Part shown: piece by piece, positions 2 to 16,864 of the stretch
How the letters are laid out: each line of letters starts with the position of its first letter
Position numbering within the stretch: the stretch's first letter is position 1
From: Lobulomyces angularis
Lineage: Eukaryota; Chytridiomycota; Chytridiomycetes; Lobulomycetales; Lobulomycetaceae
DNA: 17,002 nucleotides
NCBI GenBank assembly: GCA_027604685.1
Contig: JADHYX010000397.1
Coordinates: forward strand, 1 to 17,002
Reading direction: 5' to 3'
The notes under the pieces: model-generated
Database searches by the model: none
Told to the model about the DNA's origin: nothing
The model's input: the letters and a program-made list of their open reading frames with translations, nothing else
Translations under genes and position numbers: made by a program

Positions 2-394
2 TACTTTGATGTTGGTGGTTCAGATTCTGGGAAAAAAGCAGAATATTTTTATCATGCATTTTGTTTGGGGCTATTTGTTCACGCTCGCGACAAGTTATTT
101 AATGTTTCAAGTGAATTACCTGCAGGTACAGGTCGTTTTGATGTTACAATCACACCTCATGTAGATCAGTATTATGCAGCTATCCTGGAATTTAAAGTTG
201 TTAAAGGAGGTGAATCAATTGATGTAAAATCTCAAGAAGCGCTTGATCAAATTGATTTAAAAAGCTATCGAGCAAGTATTCCTCTTCACGTCAATAAGTT
301 AATGGAAATTGGAATTGCCTTTAAGGGTAATTCTTCTCATGTTGTTGTCAGAAAACTTGAAAAAGATGGTAATGATATTTGGAAAATAGTATAA
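2..394 (+). CDS. PD-(D/E)XK nuclease-family protein, C-terminal part (5' end outside window)
   Basis: The frame is open from base 2 to the TAA at 392-394, giving about 130 residues with no intron. It carries the pattern of the PD-(D/E)XK nuclease superfamily domain usually found behind a predicted AAA-ATPase-like domain (DUF1703/PDDEXK_9 type): YHAFCLGLF, then GRFDV with the conserved Asp, then AILEFKVV holding the E-x-K pair, then EALDQI and IGIAFKG. Family members are commonly several hundred residues, so the ATPase-like N-terminus should lie upstream of the window. Asp and E-x-K are present, so the fold's catalytic core looks intact. The family is mostly bacterial but has patchy, often multicopy occurrence in some protists and fungi. 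Its cellular role is not well established. The internal TTG at 65 is not a real start. Confidence 0.85.
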   Translation, partial: YFDVGGSDSGKKAEYFYHAFCLGLFVHARDKLFNVSSELPAGTGRFDVTITPHVDQYYAAILEFKVVKGGESIDVKSQEALDQIDLKSYRASIPLHVNKLMEIGIAFKGNSSHVVVRKLEKDGNDIWKIV

Positions 395-3090: not shown

Positions 3091-3320
3091 TTTTTGTAAT
3101 TTTATTAAACATTGGTGTAACAAAGAGTCCATGTAAAAAGTGACTTGTTGGCATATTTGTTGAAAAGAAATTTATTGCTCTAAAAGAAAAGTTAATTGCT
3201 CTGAAAACGAAATAAATTTATAATATCCTAATAAGACTTCCAAACTTACAGAAATATTTTATAAATTAAAAGCATGATTTTTTGCAAAAATAAACATCAT
3301 CTTAATTTCCAGAAAAAATT

Positions 3321-3391
3321 TCCCCATCCGGGAATTGAACCCGGGTCTTGTCGGTGAAAGCGACATATCCTAACCACTGGACTAATGAGGA
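3321..3391 (-). tRNA. tRNA-Glu (anticodon UUC)
   Basis: The minus strand folds into a full cloverleaf. The acceptor stem is TCCTCAT/ATGGGGA, with one U-G pair. The D arm is GTCC/GGAT, the anticodon stem TGTCG/CGACA, and the loop CTTTCAC gives anticodon UUC at 3358-3356. The T arm is CCGGG/CCCGG around TTCAATT. There is no intron and CCA is not encoded. A run of six T follows on the transcribed strand (3318-3313), a Pol III terminator. It lies between SEC22 and the RING gene. Confidence 0.96.
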
Positions 3392-5381: not shown

Positions 5382-8300
5382 TTACATATCCATACTATTA
5401 ACTTCGTACCTTGTATGACTGTCCAGTATCTCTTCTTCATTATTGTCTTCATCATTGTTACTTTCATTATCTTGATCAAAATCCAAGATTATTACTCTAT
5501 GCTCACTGACAACACTAATTATAAATTTTTTTCTATTGCAGCTTAGCCTTAACTTAAAATTATATTTCTCTTTGTCACTATTGCTTCTATCAATTATTTC
5601 ATCAGTTTCAAAGATGTCATTGGGAACTTTAAATAGTTGACTTTCTTGAAATTCAAATGAATTATCAAATTCACTGAGGCCATTCACAAAAATTGTTAAA
5701 TAGAAATTTTCATTTTCCTTTTCGCCGTGATCAAAAGATTTGTAAGATAACTTTAGGTAATTAACAAAAGCTACATATAAACCTAAAGAATAAATTGAAG
5801 TTGTTAAGATGCCAAAAAAAATTTAATTCTATATATATTACTTGAGTTAATATTATCATAAAAAAGTATAACAATATCGTCGCCAAAAAATTTAAAGTCA
5901 ACAACGTTGAAAATTGGAAATCTTTCATATTGAAACTTTAAAATTGCTATTTCAATCTTTTCTGTATCTTGCGTATGTGTTTTGATAACTAAAACTAAGA
6001 AAATTATTAATCAAAAAAAATGAAACTTTATATATAAAAAAAAAGTTGTAAATATTACTTTGATTTCTCATCTCCAAATTTTCATGATTTGGAATTGGTA
6101 TACTAATAGCGATATACTTAAAATAAAAAACGTAGAAAAAAAAATTATTAAGGTTTAAAATGGATTATTTTGTATCAAATACTTTAATATTTTCAAGAAA
6201 GGTGATGTAAACAATTACTCCAAACCCAACTTTATCATTAATAAAATCGAAGCAGTGAGATAGAAATTTTTCCAAAAAAAAACTTAATCTGTGGTTGCTT
6301 ATAGCTGCACTTTGTTTCCCTTTGAGAATGATACCAGTTTCTAAGGAATGCTTTTCCAATAAATCTACAGTATCGCAGTCATTTAAAATGGGTGTAAGGC
6401 TTTTAAATATTAAACAATCTACAAAACACTTTCCACTGCTTTCAAAAAATAAATTAACTTTGGATCTTAAATTAATCAAACAGTTGGAAATTGACTCAGA
6501 CTCCACTTTAATTTTTTGCGAATTACTATCAAAGTTCACATTGATTTCTACAAGATGTTCTTTTTTACTACTAAATTCAAAAAATTTTTTTAGTTGTGTC
6601 TCAACTAAACAGTCGGTTCTTAAAAATTCAACGACAAACTCATGCTGATTATCATTTTCATTTGCTGTATGTTCCGCACCAGAAAGCAGAACAACCGCTA
6701 AGAAACAAAAAAGGAATTTTACCCTAAAATAAATACACTAATTAACCTCATATATATACCTTTTATCAACCATGCACTAAATTCGGAAAATTTTTTAATT
6801 TCCTCATTCAAGTACAATAATAAACATTCAATTAAAATCATTAATGTTTCCACTTGTGTCATGCACTCAAAAATTAACTTTATGTCAAAATCCAAAGTGG
6901 TGGACTTTTTGTACCTTTAAAAAATGAAGTTAGAAAATGAAAAAATATTGTAACCATTCTCCCAGAGCCGCCAATTCACGTAATTGTAAGTATAACCTTA
7001 AAGCACCTGGTTGAAGATACGTTAAAATAGACTTTCTTAGAGTTGTGTAAGATGTCTGAATCGATTTTTCCCAGCGTAACAGTGTCTTTAACAAAATTGG
7101 TTAAATACAACAAATATTAGAAAACTGGTTACAGATTCTCCTAATTCATTAACAAGAAAAGAAAGAAATTGCTGACTGGGAAATCCAGTCAGGTACAAAC
7201 TCAGATATTCAAACATAGGATAACCCACACCTAAAAAAGAAATTGGCATAGTATCGGTAAAAAAATAATTACCTCCACATTCTTCCCATCTGGATTTATT
7301 TAAATTAAAAAACTTTTCATTAATTGTAAAGGAATTTAGAAATTCTTTTTTGCAAATTTCAAATCCTTCTTCCAAGTAGAGAAGATCTAAGTTTAGTTCA
7401 AAACTTTTTACCGAAAACATTTTCAGTTCATTTTTATATCGTAATAAATTTTTTAAGTCAAACTCAGTTGATAACAGTTGAAATAAATATTCATTTTTTG
7501 AAGCATCATCAGGTGGCTTTTTTATCGTCAAGAACGACAAAGTCTTCAATGTGCTTGTGATGGAAGACTGCACTATCCTAAAGCGCTGAATTTTTTATTT
7601 GTAATTGAAATTTGAAATTGCCAAAAACATCATACCGATGGATCTAAAGATAGTCCGTGTATAGGAATGGAACCAAGAAAAAAAATTCCATAGAGACTGA
7701 TTCAAAAATAAGTAAAATAAGTCGTACTGAAAAATAAATGGATAGTTAAATTATTACCTAAAAGTTAGATTTCCCAAAGAATCACAAATAAGAAGAATAT
7801 TAATAGTCTTAGAGCTTTCTTCTATTGTATTCAGCGAATCACTAATTCCAACTTTACTACTCAAAAAAAAAAAATAAAACATGATAAAAACAAAAAAATA
7901 ATTATGATATTAAACGGCTTTACAATTCTGATGAATTGGGAAGGGGGCTAGGCGTGGGTAATTTTGATTTGATACTCTTAGCATGTTTCTTGTTGAAAAG
8001 TAAAATGGTGTCGATGAATTTAAAGTGAAAGTGCCAAAATAATTAAAAAAAAACCTCAAAAACGGAATAATCAAGGACTTGATTTATATTACTGGATGTA
8101 TTGGAATTGTCTTCTTCTGCCCAAAATAAAAAAGTAATTTGATTCTTTAAGTTAAATGCATTTATTATCTCAGAGGTTTCCAGTGACACAATATTAACAT
8201 TCCCATTGATAAATCCAACAGATATAGAGTTCCCATCAGGCTTAAAGGCTACAGCTGTTATTTTATAATCAAATTTATTTTCCCAAACTTTTTTAATATC

Positions 8301-8453
8301 TTTTTCATCAAAATCCAACCTGCTCAATATAAGATTGGTATCTAATTGAATTATTGCAAATAAATCCTTGGTTGGGCAATAGGAAACCAATTCGATCTTT
8401 GTTGCAAAATGTTTTTCTAATCCAACCTTACATTCTGGATTCGAAAAATCCAT
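5382..8453 (-). CDS. APC4: Anaphase-promoting complex subunit 4 (APC4)
   Basis: Twelve exons join in frame: 8453-8055, 7988-7924, 7859-7758, 7696-7636, 7585-7273, 7230-7133, 7085-6955, 6914-6760, 6697-6219, 6116-6059, 5994-5842, 5782-5382. The product is 804 aa against 808 in human. The WD40 N-terminus has FKPDGNSISVGFINGNV and LPTPSPLPN. The central helical APC4 domain has LLRWEKSIQTSYTTLRKSI and LRELAALGEWYKK. The late region has ISIPIPNHEN and FKFFGDDIVILFYDN, and the C-terminus is acidic (Asp/Glu/Asn). APC4 is a scaffold subunit of the APC/C platform, which ubiquitinates cyclins and securin. Intron 1 uses an AACAAG acceptor and is the least certain junction. Introns are 40-102 nt. A candidate 5'-UTR intron lies at 8573-8512. 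The gene is complete, with no internal stops. Confidence 0.93.
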
Positions 8454-8629
8454 TGTTTTTCAAGTAAAACCCTCTTCGTTAAAAATATTAGTGCTTGGCC
8501 ATTATCTGCAACTAAATACATAAAAATAATCATTAATAAAAAAAAATTGGAAATTAAAAATCAAAAATATTACCATTGTAGAACTTCATAAACCAGTTGT
8601 AAATTTTGCTATAAATAAAAAGTTAAAAA

Positions 8630-9720
8630 ATAGAAAATCATTCACAAAACAAAACAAATTTTAATAAAGTTTTTTTTGGAATACCGACCAATATCAAAAA
8701 CAACCCCAATCAATCGTTTATTCAGCAAATCGATTAACTATACATAGTATTCATTTTTTTAATTATTTTTTGTTAAAATACCCTGACAACAAAAAATGGA
8801 GCTTGATTAATTCCGAGTTTTTGTTAGAATATACAAGTTTCTTAATCGTTCAATTAAAACTACAAAAGTTACTTCTCAAACAACTGCTATTATTAATGAG
8901 ATATTTAAAGAACACATTGAAAAGTATTAAAACTTAATTCGGTTACAAACAAGAAAATATCAAGTAATACCCTATGATGAAAAACTCAGATATACTCAAA
9001 TGCAAAGAATATTTGAAATTAAAGCTAAAAATTATGAATTAATTAGATGAAAATTAGCAAGCGATAATAAAATTTTGACAAAACAAGATGTTTATGGAAA
9101 GAATGGTTTAAGAAATTTTAATTTACTTATATCATCAAGAAAAATACTTGATCCTCTTGGATATACTCTTTATTTGAAAGATTACTTGTATCGTTTTGAA
9201 CAATTTAAATGCAATACAGTAACCATTAATTTAATTCCAATTTTCTAAATAATGGGTTTCTGTAATGCAATTCTAATTGTGCAAAACGATACAAGTAAAT
9301 TTATCAAAAAATTTAAAGAAAAATTTGGTGGTAGTGAAAACACATCCGTTTTAATTGGAGATTGGTCAAGTACATCAATGAGAAATCAAACTCTAACGAG
9401 GTAAAAAGGTTTTAGAGATATGTTTAAAAGGCGGATATCAACTTTATTGGGTTAATGAATTTTTAACTTCATCAATTTGCCCAAGACGCAAAAGTAGATC
9501 TTTAGAAACATTTAAAAAAAATAGAACATCCAAATCCCGGTAAGAATGATAAACTGATTAAAGTTTATTGATTGCTTCGTTGCAAAAACGAAAATTGTAA
9601 GCAAATGGTGAATGAGGAATTAGTGGATAGACTTTGGATAGAATTGATGTTGCAACGTTAAATAGGAAAGACATAGTAGAAAGTACTTTATTGCATGGAG
9701 TTTGACCAGTTTATTTAAGA
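8630..9720 (+). mobile_element. Decayed Fanzor (eukaryotic TnpB-like RuvC nuclease) gene, copy 1
   Basis: Plus-strand frames, broken by stops and indels, read as a Fanzor-type protein. At the N-terminus (from 8630, ATA where copy 2 has ATG) come NHSQNKTNFNKVFFG, SANRLTIHSIHFFNYFLLKY and KKWSLINSEF. The C-terminal half has SKFIKKFKEKFGG, then GDWSSTSMRNQ (GDWS at 9357-9368), then WVNEFLTSSICP, whose Glu codon at 9457-9459 fits the RuvC-II glutamate. LETFKK and LLRCKNENC, the rest of the zinc-finger region, follow. DVATLN (from 9646) fits the RuvC-III Asp, and HG-x-x-PVYLRR ends the match. One zinc Cys is now Arg (CGC, 9487-9489). I found no RuvC-I DxG segment. There are at least six in-frame stops plus frameshifts, so it is inactive as a protein. 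It sits divergent to APC4, 177 bp from its start codon. Confidence 0.85.
9182..9298. repeat. Foldback (imperfect inverted repeat) inside the Fanzor relic
   Basis: The outer arms match at 23 of 24 bases: TTACTTGTATCGTTTTG at 9182-9198 is repeated inverted at 9282-9298, and the match continues through CAATT. The inner arms (GCAATACAGTAACCATTA against its inverted counterpart around 9250-9270) are clearly related but diverged. The whole 117-bp segment can fold into one long hairpin with almost no loop. It interrupts the Fanzor frame just before SKFIKKFKEKFG. Confidence 0.85.
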
Positions 9721-9930
9721 AGATAGATGTTGTAAATTTTTACTAAATAGTTTTCGCTATTTTTTTAATCGGTGTTTGTTTTATTATTTTTTTGGATATT
9801 TAATGTTCAAAAAGATAATGCTTTCACACTCGTATTAATTTCAAAAAATTTAATTTTACACAAAATAATTTTCTACTGTAAAATACATTAAAAATTTAAA
9901 TTATACATTAAAAAAAAAAAAGTCATGAAA
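9721..9930. other. AT-rich spacer between Fanzor relic and RagC 3' end
   Basis: No gene is seen. If the element once carried a guide-RNA segment it would be expected at this 3' end, but I could not recognise a conserved fold or element end. Confidence 0.4.
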
Positions 9931-11441
9931 TTACTTGCAAGAAGATTTTAATTTAATTTCATGAACCTGTAAAACTGAATCTTTGAATAATTCAAAATTG
10001 TACTCAATAATACCAAACTGTCTATCGAAATTATCACTTTTTAGTAAACAAACAAGAGATATATTGCTAGAAAATAAAAATACTAAATTAATTTTACAAC
10101 AAAAATATTAACTATTACTGATTTATAGCACGAGAATATAAAACCATTCCGTTATTTAGTTTAATTAAAGAATGTGATTGAGCATCATGTCGCTTTTTTC
10201 CATATATTCCGTCATTAGGATCTTCACTAGCGCTTAATAAAATCAGTAATTTAAAATGATGATTTTTAAATGAAAAAGATTTTTAAAAATTTTTACTCGT
10301 AAATGGATGAAATATCTAAAAAAACGTCAATGACATCGGAGCATAATTCGTAACTTTGAATATCAACTTTTATAAAAATCAATTAGATATATTTAAAAAT
10401 GGGATCGAAATTAAAAACCTGGAGAAGCATCAGTGGCAATGTAAATCTTACTAAATACATCAAATAAAAAAGCTTTTTCAATTCCGGAATTCTAATTTTA
10501 ATAAAACAATTCATGAAAAAATAAATAGAAAATATTTTTAAATTACTTTTTTTAAATAGAAAAGAATAAGAATAATTGTTTATGAAAAAAACTTACTGAA
10601 CAAAAAATGTTTAACAAATTTTCCAAAGTAGGAAGCTCGGTCATTAGCTTCTGAACTATTTTACTAAATGCTTCATAGATTGAGTAATCATATATCGAAG
10701 TTAAATAAAAACTAACTCTGACAACATCTAACCCGTAATCTTCTAATTCTTCCGTCATACGTTGATGGATATCTCTTTGTGTTTCGATTTTATGATCGTC
10801 CGATAGTCCATCTACTTTGTGAATTAAAACTTCAAATGATATCTTTGGGTTGATTTTATATGCTGCTGTAACTATAAAAAACAACATAAAAATTTTTTTT
10901 TTATAAAATTATTTTTTACTTGTAGAGAAGAGAAAATGCAATGCTTCTAAATAGTCATCCTGCGCATCAATTACATACACTAAAGCACCGCAACTAAAAA
11001 AAAATGTTATAACTTTAAAAATTGTATATTTTTATTACTTTAAAAAAATTTCCTCTAAATTTTCATTATTTTCAGATAAATCAACTTGACCTGGCTACAA
11101 AAATTTATATACGTATAAAATAATTTTAACTCTTCAACTTAAATTGAAGAAAACAAAAAAAAAGTTATAAAATTCCTTACAAAATCCCAGATTTGAAATT
11201 CTTCAAAACTATTAAACTCAAATTTATTGATAATGTCAGTAGATTCCATGTAAAGAGTATCGTTTGCGTTTAACTTTCGAAAAACTACTTGTTGTATTGA
11301 ACTCTTTCCAGATCTTCTTAAACCCATTAACAATATTTTGGCTGAATTTAATGCTGTAGGTGTATTTAATGATTTTTGTGAAAATGATGAAGCACTGAGT
11401 GGTGAAGTAAGTGAAACTTCATCATGTATATCATTTTTCAT
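9931..11441 (-). CDS. GTR2: RagC/Gtr2-type small GTPase
   Basis: Eight exons join in frame: 11441-11181, 11094-11039, 10993-10920, 10871-10597, 10491-10419, 10366-10297, 10232-10119, 10066-9931, giving 352 aa (yeast Gtr2 341, human RagC 399). G1 is GLRRSGKS at residues 40-47, G3 is WDF|PGQ at 85-90 across intron 1, and G4 is HKVD at 148-151, inside [28 protein letters not shown] and [11 protein letters not shown] follow, and the C-terminal roadblock-type domain has [15 protein letters not shown] and [11 protein letters not shown]. RagC/Gtr2 heterodimerises with RagA/B (Gtr1) on the lysosome or vacuole to relay amino-acid status to TORC1. The RagC/D identity rests on GLRRSGKSS and the HKVDGLSDD block. 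Introns are 43-105 nt. The gene is complete. Confidence 0.96.
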
Positions 11442-11663
11442 TTCTACGAAAAAAAATTTTTATTTTTTTTTTTATATACAAAATTGAATTGTTAGAAATA
11501 GTATGTATTAAAGAAGAATTGACAAAATAAAAATGAAAAATTGTATTTAATGGTTAACTATTGCGATTGCAAAAACTATTAATAATTTTTATACCAGTTA
11601 ATTAAGACAAAAGTGATTAATTTTTTTCCAATGATGTATTAAAAAAAATTTACAAACTTCTTT
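11442..11663. other. AT-rich spacer upstream of the RagC gene
   Basis: This stretch holds the promoter and 5' leader of the RagC gene and the 3' end of the reductase gene, both on the minus strand. No gene or recognisable site is seen. Confidence 0.5.
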
Positions 11664-13020
11664 TTAAAATTTAGAACTAACTATATCCTCTTCATGCTCC
11701 TCACTAACTTTGACTAGCAGTTTTCCAATATTTTTGCCTTCAAAAAGATGAAGTAGAGAATTTGGTGCATTTTCCAACCCTTCAACAATGGTCTCTTTCT
11801 GCTGAATTTTTCCACTATTTAACCATTCTAGAATTTGTTTTCTTGCTTCAGAGTATCGTTTAGCGTAATCAAATACGATAAATCCTTCCATTTTTGCCCG
11901 CATCGATATTAAGGTCATGTATGCACTAGGTCCTAAAAAATTTAGTATAATGAATAAAAAAAAAATTACCTTTTGGTTCCTTCTCATTGTATTGTGATAT
12001 CGCACCGCATAATACGACTCTTCCTTTGAATGCTAATCTGCGTAAACAAAGATTTAAAATATCTCCACCAACATTGTCAAAGTACACGTCAATAAATTTC
12101 GGTGTAGCCTTAGAAAGATTTTTAGCAAAATCTTTATCTTTGTAGTTAAGAGCCTCATCACATCCAATTTCCTTAAGCCATTCACACTTTTCTTCACTTC
12201 CTGCAATTCCTACAACTCTGCAACCCACTGCTTTCGCAATTTGAGCAGCAACTTCGATACAATTAGACATAAAATAAGAATAAATTAATACTAGATCCGG
12301 TAGCTCCAGCACAACCGGAAATGACAACTGTTTCTCCGGCTTTTGGTTTTCCAATATCAAGCAATCCAAAGTAAGCAGTCATTCCGGTCATCCCAAGGCA
12401 GCCTTGACTTTGAAGCAAAGTAGTTCCTAGGAAATATGCATAAAAATTCATTCATTTTCGGTTTTAATTAATTACCCTCTGGAAAAGAAAATATTGAAAC
12501 GTCCTTCCCGTTAGAAATGGCATATTTTTGCCATCCTAATCATTTTCAATTAAAAAATTAAGATAATCAATATTATACCAAGAGTTCCTTGAACATAGTC
12601 ACCTTTTTTAAACTTTGAATTTTTTGACCTATTACAAACCAATTAATTGACAAATTAATTGATCAATAAAACTTACAAAATTACTTCACCAACAACAGCA
12701 CCTCTCATTACATCATTTATTTTAACTGGTTCTATGTACGATCTGGCATCATTCATCCAACCTAAACGCAAAAACTGTTGATGGGTTGAAAAGACAATAA
12801 TGGCAATTACCTCTCATAGCTGGATCTAAAGATAAATATACTGATCTAATCAATAAGTGTCCATCTAAGACAAATAATAAGTAGTGAAAAAAGTAAATTT
12901 ATTGAAACCAGGAATGTTGGTGTCAAATTCTTCTTTCGTTATTCTAAAAGTTTCATTTGGAATGAGCTGACCTGTTGGTCGTTTGACGAATAAAATCTTA
13001 GTATTAGTTAAAGTTGGCAT
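11664..13020 (-). CDS. NADP-dependent MDR oxidoreductase (prostaglandin/leukotriene reductase-like)
   Basis: Eight exons join in frame: 13020-12909, 12864-12811, 12761-12677, 12628-12579, 12535-12476, 12426-12292, 12251-11970, 11932-11664, giving 348 aa, typical for this zinc-independent MDR group. The N-terminal GroES-like domain has VYLSLDPAMRGWMNDARSY, then GDYVQG and GWQKYAI. The Rossmann segment has GMTGMTAYFGLLDIG and the glycine-rich ISGCAGATGS (about 156-165), then VYFDNVGG and GRVVLCGAIS. The C-terminus has MEGFIVFDY, then GKIQQKE and LFEGKNIGKLLVKV. Zinc ligands of classical alcohol dehydrogenases are absent, as expected. Enzymes of this family reduce the C=C bond of enones with NADPH; the substrate here is unknown. 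I chose the ATG at 13020 over an in-frame ATG at 13095 because the family starts close to this block. Introns include 37- and 40-nt examples. Confidence 0.95.
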
Positions 13021-13600: not shown

Positions 13601-13965
13601 AATTAATATTATTAACACCAAATAATGACACTCTAATTACAGTATATTGATACCACGATATACATGTTACTCGTTCGAGTTTACTTATTAAGGTACTATT
13701 TATAATGTAATTATGAAAAGAATGAAATTTTTCGATTAGTAATAGAGGTTTGGAAATAAAAAATGAATGACAGCATATATATTAACAGTTTACTTTTCCA
13801 TTAAATTAAATAGTGCTTGCGCATTATCTTTTTAAACATATAAAAATAGTAATTAAAATATATATTCCAGATAGTTAATAAACACCGAAATTATAACTAT
13901 AATTATATTGGTAAAAAATTTTAGAAAAAAACTATAAATAGTGAGTAAAGTTAACATTTTTTTTT
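13601..13965. other. AT-rich stretch without a visible gene
   Basis: Sequence leading up to the second Fanzor fragment. No open frame, RNA or element terminus is recognised. Confidence 0.5.
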
Positions 13966-13980
13966 TTGATCATTTTAAAA

Positions 13981-14190
13981 ATGGAAAAACATTTTTGCAA
14001 TAAAACAAAATTCAATAATCTTTTTATTGGAACATCTGAACAATATGCAAAAATGGAAGATTTAATATATACTGCAAATCGATTAACTGTTCACACAACC
14101 CACTTTTTTAAATATTTTATGTTAAATTACCAAGATAACAATAAATGGAGTATGATAAATGCTGATTTTTTTGTTTATGAAAGTTCACTT
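13981..14190 (+). mobile_element. Fanzor N-terminal fragment, copy 2
   Basis: The frame opens at ATG 13981 (another in-frame ATG is at 13966). It encodes MEKHFCNKTKFNNLFIGTS, then TANRLTVHTTHFFKYFMLNY, then NNKWSMINADFF. Over about 65 residues this aligns with the N-terminus of the relic at 8630, including the shared A-N-R-L-T-x-H, H-F-F-x-Y-F and K-W-S-x-I-N blocks. Copy 2 has no stop or frameshift here and still has ATG where copy 1 has ATA. Similarity ends near 14190, and the frame runs on into a long T run at 14223-14242. None of the RuvC motifs follow, so this is a 3'-truncated copy, or the first exon of one broken downstream. Confidence 0.7.
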
Positions 14191-14244
14191 TACCTTTACC
14201 CATGCGCCACACCATTCAAGAATTTTTTTTTTTTTTTTTTTTTA

Positions 14245-14678
14245 AATAAAAAAAGAATTTAACATATTTTAATCTTGATAATGTATCCTTTTTTACTTTA
14301 AAACCTTAAACATTTCTAGAATCATCAAACATCTTATGATTACTAACTGTATGCTTTCCTAATTTAAAAGGAAACCAGAACTGTTAATAATTATTAAGAC
14401 GTTTTTTTGGATTTTCATTCAAAAAGCATTTTACTATTAATTAAGTATTTTTTTGTAATATTTTAATTGTTAGGCATTGCTGTACGCGGTAATATTTGCG
14501 ATAATTGCACCTCTGTTTGAGGCTGGTTAGTATTTACCTACACTAATTGGTTATAGGTAATGAGGTTAAATTTTTATACAAAAAAAACAATTTTTGAGAA
14601 AATTGGAAATTTAATAAAATTAAAAAAATTTAATTTTATTAGATTTCTACTTTATTACAAATATTGTTATTGACTTAT
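14245..14678. other. Non-coding stretch before the snoRNA pair
   Basis: Mostly AT-rich. The block at about 14470-14570 is less AT-biased and holds a 6-bp stem (TTACCT/AGGTAA) and the mixed-composition segment GCTGTACGCGGTAATATTTG. It could be an RNA gene or decayed coding sequence. I could not match it to a known RNA. Confidence 0.3.
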
Positions 14679-15650: not shown

Positions 15651-15758
15651 CTTTAAAAAAAAAAAAGTTTAATTTATTTTTTTTTTTTGTAACAAAAAAA
15701 TATTAAAAAAAAAAATTAAAAAATAATAAAAATTTTTTTTTTTTCAAAAAAATAAAAA

Positions 15759-16864
15759 ATGAGCAGAGACAGGTTTCAAGACTTAAACAATAACAGACAA
15801 CATCAGTACCCACAGCAACCTCAGCAGTACAATCAAAACAACTACAGTTCTTCTCAGCATCCAAGTTTCAACAAGGTCTCTTCAAACAATTTTAACGATT
15901 TAAGCAATGAAATCAGGAGAAATATTGATTCTATCAAGCAATCATCTAGAGACTTGCAAGGTCTTCATAGAAGAGCTTTAACGGAAATCAACTCACAGCA
16001 ACAACAAAGTAACTAAATTTTTTTTTTTTTTATTCACACTTTCTTTTTTTTTTTTTTTTTTCTAGGTATATTTTCTCAAATTGATAATATTGTAGATTCC
16101 ACCTCAAATTTAATTCAAAAAACCAGACAGGATTTAAAAAATCTAACATCTTCCTCTGGTGGTGACCCACAGATGAAATTAACAGAGCAAAAAAGTCTCG
16201 CCAGAAAGTTAATCGAAGTTGCTAAGGAATATCAAAATATTCAACAAAGTGCAAAAACTCAATACAGAGGCCAATTAGAAAGGCAGTTTAAAATTGCTAA
16301 GCCTAACGCCACCAGAGAGGAAATTACTGAAGCTCTTGACAACAACAGTGGAGGAAACGTTTTTCAACAGCAGATTTTAAGCAGCAGAGTTACGGATCAA
16401 AGAAGAATTCTTGATCAAGTTCAAAATCGTCAACAAGAATTGAACAAAATTGAACAAAGTTTAGTTGAATTATTTCAATTAATGCAGGATATGCAAATGA
16501 TGTTAGAGGTAAAAAAAAAGAAAAAAAGAAAAATAAAAGTAAAAAAAAATAATTCTTTTCTTTTTTTTAGAATCAGCAAACTATGATTGATCAAATTGAA
16601 ACAAATATCGAAGACTCATCTACAGCCATTGAGTATGGCTCAAAAGAACTGACAAAAGCTACTGACAATGCCAGATCCGCTAGAAAAAAGAAGTGGATCA
16701 TTTTCTTTTGTGTTTTGATTTTATTGATTATCGTTGGTTTAGTAGTTTGGTTCCAGTTTGTTGCTCCACTTGTTAACGCTGCAAATGCTGCCAACAATGG
16801 TAATGGCTCTGGTACTACACCTGTTACAACCACTGCCGCTGCCGCTTCTCCTACTCCCTCTTAG
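15759..16864 (+). CDS. Syntaxin-type Qa-SNARE (plasma-membrane/Sso1-like)
   Basis: Three exons (15759-16008, 16066-16508, 16571-16864) give 328 aa. Residues 1-50 are rich in Gln and Asn. An Habc-like helical region starts around DLSNEIRRNIDSIKQ. The SNARE motif runs from about QELNKIEQSLVELFQLM through MIDQIETNIEDS, with Gln233 as the predicted zero-layer residue, directly after intron 2. SARKKK precedes a membrane anchor at about 273-294. Such proteins sit in the target membrane and form the four-helix bundle with Qb, Qc and R-SNAREs. Fungal Sso-type and animal syntaxin 1 families end shortly after the anchor, whereas this one carries about 34 more residues rich in Asn, Gly, Thr, Ala and Pro. 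Introns are 57 and 62 nt. The gene is complete. Confidence 0.95.

Follow-up and report, generated by a model that had tools for sequence, protein, structure and literature searches.

The closest described system is SPu-1, the element that encodes the Spizellomyces punctatus Fanzor1 protein SpuFz1. As described in PMC3627910 and PMC10432273, SPu-1 is ~2.1 kb long, has Fanzor1 as its sole ORF, ends in TIRs of ~30 bp and uses a TA target site, and it is accompanied by "ghost" copies without an ORF (PMC10432273). Its omegaRNA has been sequenced and consists of a 75-nt scaffold across the right IR and a guide of 14-15 nt; the TAM of SpuFz1 is CATA, and CA precedes the left IR (PMC10432273). The TIR and the target-site duplication are also predicted to lie within the scaffolds of Fanzor1 reRNAs, including that of SfAV (PMC10711439). 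Saito et al. 2023 report finding no transposase flanked by the SPu-1 repeats (PMC10432273). Fanzor-only elements that insert at TA and share TIRs with transposase-bearing Tc1/mariner elements, among them PUl-4 and PGv-1, were described by Bao & Jurka 2013 (PMC3627910).

The window analyzed here is the whole 17,002-nucleotide stretch at positions 1 to 17,002 of contig JADHYX010000397.1 of the chytrid Lobulomyces angularis. Its GC content is ~26%, and it was compared with the organism's own genome (20.76 Mb in 533 contigs). A preliminary description had recognized a decayed Fanzor gene at 8630-9720, next to APC4. The Fanzor reading is supported by a Fanzor1 motif and by matches to three solved Fanzor1 proteins, and the neighboring gene proved to be APC4, but the relic is longer than described, extending from TIR to TIR (Table 1). 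Very probably this remnant (W1) belonged to an SPu-1-type TIR transposon that carried Fanzor1 and inserted at TA, of which it is now a dead copy; the proposed mechanism is given below. No paper on this Lobulomyces Fanzor family was found in the literature searched, judged by title.

Table 1. Positions of the Fanzor1 element copies W1 and W2, their parts and other genes in the window
Feature	Position	Strand	Evidence or remark
PD-(D/E)XK nuclease domain ORF	2..394	+	PDDEXK_9, 3.4e-16; runs off contig start
tRNA gene	3320..3391	-	Rfam RF00005, 65.5 bits
APC4 first exon	8043..8459	-	ANAPC4_WD40, 2.4e-18; start codon about 8453
W1, Fanzor1 transposon remnant (degenerate), both TIRs included	8489..9831	+	End alignments, genome matches
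W1 left TIR	8489..8517	+	Alignment of ends; degenerate after GGCCATTATC, AT just before
W1 Fanzor N-terminal remnant	8626..8964	+	tblastn with L037 (N-terminal fragment), 37%, 4e-13
W1 internal-deletion junction	8966..8974	+	Comparison of copies; common to L011
W1 Fanzor C-terminal remnant	8974..9726	+	tblastn, three-frame reading
W1 imperfect inverted duplication	9170..9311	+	Comparison of copies; also in L011
W1 candidate omegaRNA scaffold	9740..9831	+	Covariance model R1; hairpin AAATAGTTTTCGCTATTT at 9745-9762
W1 right TIR	9803..9831	+	Alignment of ends; outer end mutated
Gtr1/RagA gene exons	10552..11459	-	Gene on far side of W1 from APC4
Zinc-binding dehydrogenase gene	11926..12378	-	ADH_zinc_N, 1e-23
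W2, second, truncated family copy	13811..14196	+	Left TIR 13811-13839, N-terminal coding part, ORF 13945-14262
Syntaxin/SNARE gene, multi-exon	15756..16864	+	SNARE, 3.9e-17

Identification of the protein rests mainly on L024, an open homologous fragment of 332 aa from elsewhere in the genome, which matches the window by tblastn at 8931-9431 (35% identity, 1e-14) and 9397-9717 (33%, 2e-5). A structure-sequence search with L024, the best fragment, gave five matches at E≤10, and the three significant ones are all Fanzor1 proteins: SpuFz1 (PDB 8gkh; E 5.8e-53, residues 10-328), Parasitella PpFz1 (2.3e-36) and Guillardia GtFz1 (1.6e-6). The C-terminal motif given for Fanzor1 by Bao & Jurka 2013 (PMC3627910), D-X(125,275)-[TS][TS]-x-x-C4 zinc finger-X(5,50)-RD, is found in L024 as D, X159, TS, CPGC...CKSEIC (C4), X11 and RD. 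The metal-binding residues D383, N385, E541 and D606 of SpuFz1 (PMC10432273) align with D91, N93, E248 and D306 of L024. Among readable loci, W1 counted, 21 of 23 have the first RuvC D, 26 of 34 the E and 30 of 35 the last D, and some of the misses are frameshift misreads, e.g., in L048, whose open frame reads NEFLTSS. The profile search proposed in the preliminary description was less decisive: the Pfam zinc ribbon PF07282 was matched, but at best with 21.1 bits against a cutoff of 26.3, and two Fanzor pieces and a longer relative (P0001) had no match in NCBIfam.

PF07282 is common to TnpB and Fanzor (PMC3627910), and on that basis the remnant could, instead of being a eukaryotic Fanzor1, be a bacterial TnpB of the IS605/IS607 kind that arrived as contamination or was transferred recently. 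This origin is scarcely credible, however, given that every significant structure match is to Fanzor1, that the named relatives (a minority of 85) are chytrids, a green alga and one unclassified eukaryote, that the window carries multi-exon eukaryotic genes and that the element, unlike IS605/IS607, has TIRs and a TA target site. Among the relatives, P0004 of Clydaea vesicula (410 aa, annotated as partial) has a precomputed PF08706 domain, which we take to be of the D5 type and virus-like, followed by a Fanzor C terminus. The arrangement suggests that a Fanzor copy inserted in a helicase-like gene; a fusion made in annotation could explain it as well.

In 18 pairs of open fragments, dN was 0.08-0.34 and dS 0.33-3.2, in a set limited to open fragments, which favors low dN, and with the high dS values being unreliable. 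The excess of dS over dN in these pairs indicates constraint on the Fanzor protein at the time when the family was spreading.

W1 itself is an ordinary dead relic. A three-frame translation recovered the motifs GDWS (9357-9368), NEFLTSSICP, CKNENC and DVATLN on the + strand in the order previously described, in frames that shift and contain many stops throughout 8626-9726, and no intact ORF of about 600 aa is present. Both the N-terminal and the C-terminal halves that had been claimed are there, but they do not make up a contiguous protein, as the middle is missing at 8966/8974. Among 20 copies with both parts, W1 counted, 16 have an extra 760-1113 bp at this point, L018 has 278 bp, and W1, L011 and L010 have about none. 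The missing stretch includes RuvC-I, and the C-terminal part of W1 begins at approximately residue 104 of L024, past D91. The catalytic residues are incomplete: the alternative RuvC Glu, that of NEFLTSSICP, is kept (9457-9459), the RuvC-III Asp reads Ile (9643-9645), and the zinc ribbon is broken, with CPRR in place of CPGC.

The relic is one of many. A nucleotide search with 8600-9750 as query (108 candidates, 40 scored) gave at least 70 matching places in the genome. Apart from the query locus, the best of them has 87% identity over 776 query bases, and the relic is thus not a chance resemblance. The L024 protein gave at least 139 matches (271 candidates, 121 scored); in both counts one copy contributes several pieces, and neither is a copy number. 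Alignment of element ends defined a TIR of ~29 bases, TAGTGCTTGGGCATTATCTTTTTGAACAT, which occurs 121 times at ≤3 mismatches, compared with 0 for a reversed control. The TIR abuts a TA target site, and beyond the TA, the flanks of separate copies are unrelated. Both the TIR and the TA site are those of a TA-inserting transposon of the Tc1/mariner-IS630 type, and past activity in this genome, as deduced earlier from the relic, is supported. Most copies that retain both ends measure 2.0-2.4 kb, close to SPu-1, and L038, an internal-deletion copy of 538 bp that keeps both ends and the 3' region, corresponds to the "ghost" copies described for SPu-1 (PMC10432273). The window contains a second copy, W2, with 73.6% identity to a Fanzor N terminus and no right end found within the window.

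The suggestion that intact copies may exist elsewhere was followed up in the assembly, and none was found: the copies are decayed, unlike SPu-1, and the longest open frame among the matches listed of the 139 is 361 aa, compared with 633 aa in SPu-1. Among the 100 TIRs listed of 121, 21 lie within 420 bases of a contig start and point into it, and only 1 points away, which indicates that contigs tend to begin inside elements. Near-identical, young and perhaps intact copies may therefore be absent from the assembly.

Both the deletion junction and the inverted duplication of W1 recur in L011, on contig C175, and the view that they are private to W1 is wrong. Of 11 other copies tested, only L011 has the inverted duplication, which is absent from L009, L010, L012, L013, L015, L019, L022, L025, L027 and L030; the deletion in L010 differs from that shared by W1 and L011. 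The match between W1 and L011 stops at the element ends (8507-9828) and the flanks are unlike, so that the two are separate insertions of one form that was already defective. It follows that this form was still mobile once broken, in keeping with mobilization in trans.

A transposase that could act in trans is encoded by other elements with the same ends. Three elements carry transposase sequence between two TIRs of the family with 1-5 edits: L046 (2,513 bp), L057 (1,447 bp) and L059 (2,805 bp, TIRs with 5 edits). The HTH and DDE_3 transposase is found in these elements and not in W1, and its frames are decayed. In L046 (contig C280), with broken frames, HTH_23 was matched above the cutoff (4.4e-7), DDE_3 was matched in two pieces below it (6.7e-5) and just below it (1.6e-6), and matches to an IS630 model ranged from 5.5e-4 to 2.1e-6, below the cutoff. 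The HTH piece fits an IS481 model slightly better (5.9e-7) than IS630 (2.1e-6), which counts against the explanation preferred here. The second D and the E are separated by 44 residues in L046 and L059 by manual count. The middle piece of the transposase has 24 matches in the genome (26 candidates, 26 scored), and no intact transposase was seen in the assembly. These decayed IS630/Tc1-mariner-type transposases with the same or similar TIRs are likely the trans partner of the Fanzor elements.

On the strand opposite the L046 transposase, a 158-aa ORF (358-834, +) gave only weak matches of the coiled-coil type, the best being DUF7310 at 0.0012, which is far below the cutoff. At L056 (contig C109, 60-1527), a Fanzor remnant (180-719, minus) directly adjoins the remnant of a transposase that belongs to the same TIR family and lacks its start. 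A combined Fanzor-plus-transposase element was considered for this locus and rejected, as no second TIR was found and two truncated elements appear to have been joined there.

The sharing of ends between Fanzor and transposase elements is known in kind from PUl-4 and PGv-1 (PMC3627910), from which the present case differs in host lineage and in the 44-residue spacing of the transposase. What is new is its occurrence in an SPu-1-like chytrid family, for whose namesake the published account reports no transposase between the IRs (PMC10432273).

The right end of the element is a candidate omegaRNA scaffold. Just past the stop codon stands a hairpin, AAATAG-TTTTCG-CTATTT, found at 46 places in the genome at ≤1 mismatch (control, 0); an alternative hairpin, AACATAG-TTTTCA-CTATGTT, is found at 27 places at ≤2 mismatches (control, 0). 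A chance origin of the TIR and hairpin matches is ruled out by the zero counts in the controls. A long hairpin follows, with the right TIR and the TA as its 3' arm (GGUGUUUG with CAAGCAC, as well as an inner stem). W1 scores 86.5 bits (E 3.7e-14) against covariance model R1, which has W1 among its own sequences. When eight copies were folded singly, the z-scores were -6.1, -5.2, -5.9, -7.2, -2.7, -2.5, -0.9 and -5.5, i.e., ≤-5 in five copies and between -0.9 and -2.7 in three. The structure pairs 90.3% of 774 cells in an alignment of 33 right ends, compared with 46-58% when it is slid, an advantage that is partly built in, since the tested structure is our own reading of the alignment, extended from single-copy folds. 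The covariation score was 0.088; shuffles gave 0.072, and 3 of 500 reached the observed value. The placement of the candidate agrees with that of the sequenced SPu-1 omegaRNA, which likewise follows the stop codon and takes in the right TIR (PMC10432273), and with the predicted Fanzor1 scaffolds (PMC10711439). Weighed against the covariation counts given below, the folding results offer moderate support for a putative scaffold function.

The same hairpins might instead be DNA ends bound by the transposase and nothing more, with the left-flank dinucleotides described below reflecting its target preference. The TIR itself is one arm of the long hairpin, and its conservation may thus serve the transposase. 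Two-sided covariation is weak (three pairs with two-sided change against a shuffle mean of 2.6, 271 of 500 as high, with slid structures reaching six), and RNAalifold found no consensus pair. We nevertheless consider it unlikely that the hairpins are DNA ends alone. The first hairpin lies outside the TIR and is conserved across subfamilies, and one of its pairs changes from A-U to C-G in five copies and to U-A in one further copy. Moreover, neither this hairpin nor the rest of the RNA region was found in L046, L057 or L059, which bear the transposase; cmsearch at E≤1 gave a single 21.6-bit match (E 0.046), in L046. In SPu-1, sequenced RNA is reported at the same place (PMC10432273).

The left flanks differ between subfamilies, which we defined ourselves by left-end similarity. 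Among the 14 scored left ends of the L048 subfamily (CATA), the dinucleotide preceding the TA is CA nine times, TA four times and CC once (damaged); CA precedes TA in 3.8% of cases in the fetched DNA (binomial tail, 3e-10). This subfamily has 39 rows: besides the 14 scored, 17 stop short of the TIR and 8 were excluded as short or TIR-only, two of which were fetched (L071 with CA and L072 with GG). L067, whose TIR is damaged, was scored as a miss. In the W1 subfamily, the flank is AT in 8 of 10 ends, the others being CT in L011 and AA in the more distant W2, against a background of 12.5% for AT before TA (tail, 2e-6). The rows C181 (L030), C15, C254 and C167 lack the outer TIR end and were unscored, and the TIR of W1 was placed separately. 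Eight left ends from other subfamilies have no common dinucleotide (AT in L014 and L045, TA in L015 and L025, TC in L018, CA in L019, AC in L027 and AA in L037), a point in favor of a target preference of the transposase. Elements with the transposase or without an ORF have TA (L046 and L047), GT (L057) and AA (L059). The bias is one-sided, however, with no mirror bias at right flanks (TG in 1 of 6 in the CATA subfamily and AT in 1 of 10 in the W1 subfamily), and it differs between subfamilies with near-identical TIRs, both of which tell against a transposase preference.

CA before TA is also the arrangement described for SPu-1 (PMC10432273), shared here by one subfamily; the second, with AT before TA, differs from SPu-1. 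These biases may represent subfamily-specific TAMs. A further reading, to which we give less than even weight, is that sister Fanzor1 subfamilies with near-identical ends, presumably served by one transposase, diverged in TAM (CATA versus ATTA) and that the retained insertions record this divergence.

W1 lies upstream of APC4, its outer end only 36 bp from the start codon (window 8453-8489), and because of this short distance, the APC4 promoter sequence probably lies within the dead element, so that the two overlap. Proximity of this kind could be taken as a sign of domestication, with W1 kept to serve APC4 as regulatory or as coding sequence; the coding frames of W1 are wrecked, and we regard domestication as very unlikely.

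The preferred account remains that of a dead SPu-1-type transposon. In the proposed mechanism, the living ancestor would have been an element of ~2.0-2.4 kb encoding Fanzor1 only, moved into TA sites in trans by an IS630/Tc1-mariner-type transposase encoded on separate elements whose TIRs are the same or similar. The transcript of its right end (hairpin, TIR and TA) would act as the omegaRNA scaffold, with the flanking bases as the guide, and the Fanzor-RNA complex would cut the matching empty site where a TAM (flank plus TA) adjoins it. Such cutting may help the element to be kept or copied. The line from which W1 comes had already lost its middle and gained the inverted duplication, given that L011, on another contig, has both defects with different flanks; W1 was accordingly inserted as a passenger, and its decay continued afterwards.

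Beyond the features of the SPu-1 type, the family offers a candidate trans-acting transposase, a sister copy of a broken form that moved and flank evidence for two TAMs. The natural role of Fanzors is unsettled, and SPu-1, although well studied, has no transposase reported between its repeats (PMC10432273). A chytrid with matching ends on Fanzor elements and on elements with a Tc1/mariner-type transposase provides a concrete pair for testing mobilization in trans, to which a Fanzor-dead form that moved after breaking adds a test case. The two flank motifs are testable predictions of TAMs, and if the subfamilies did diverge in TAM, the Fanzor nuclease, and not the transposase alone, would decide where elements persist.
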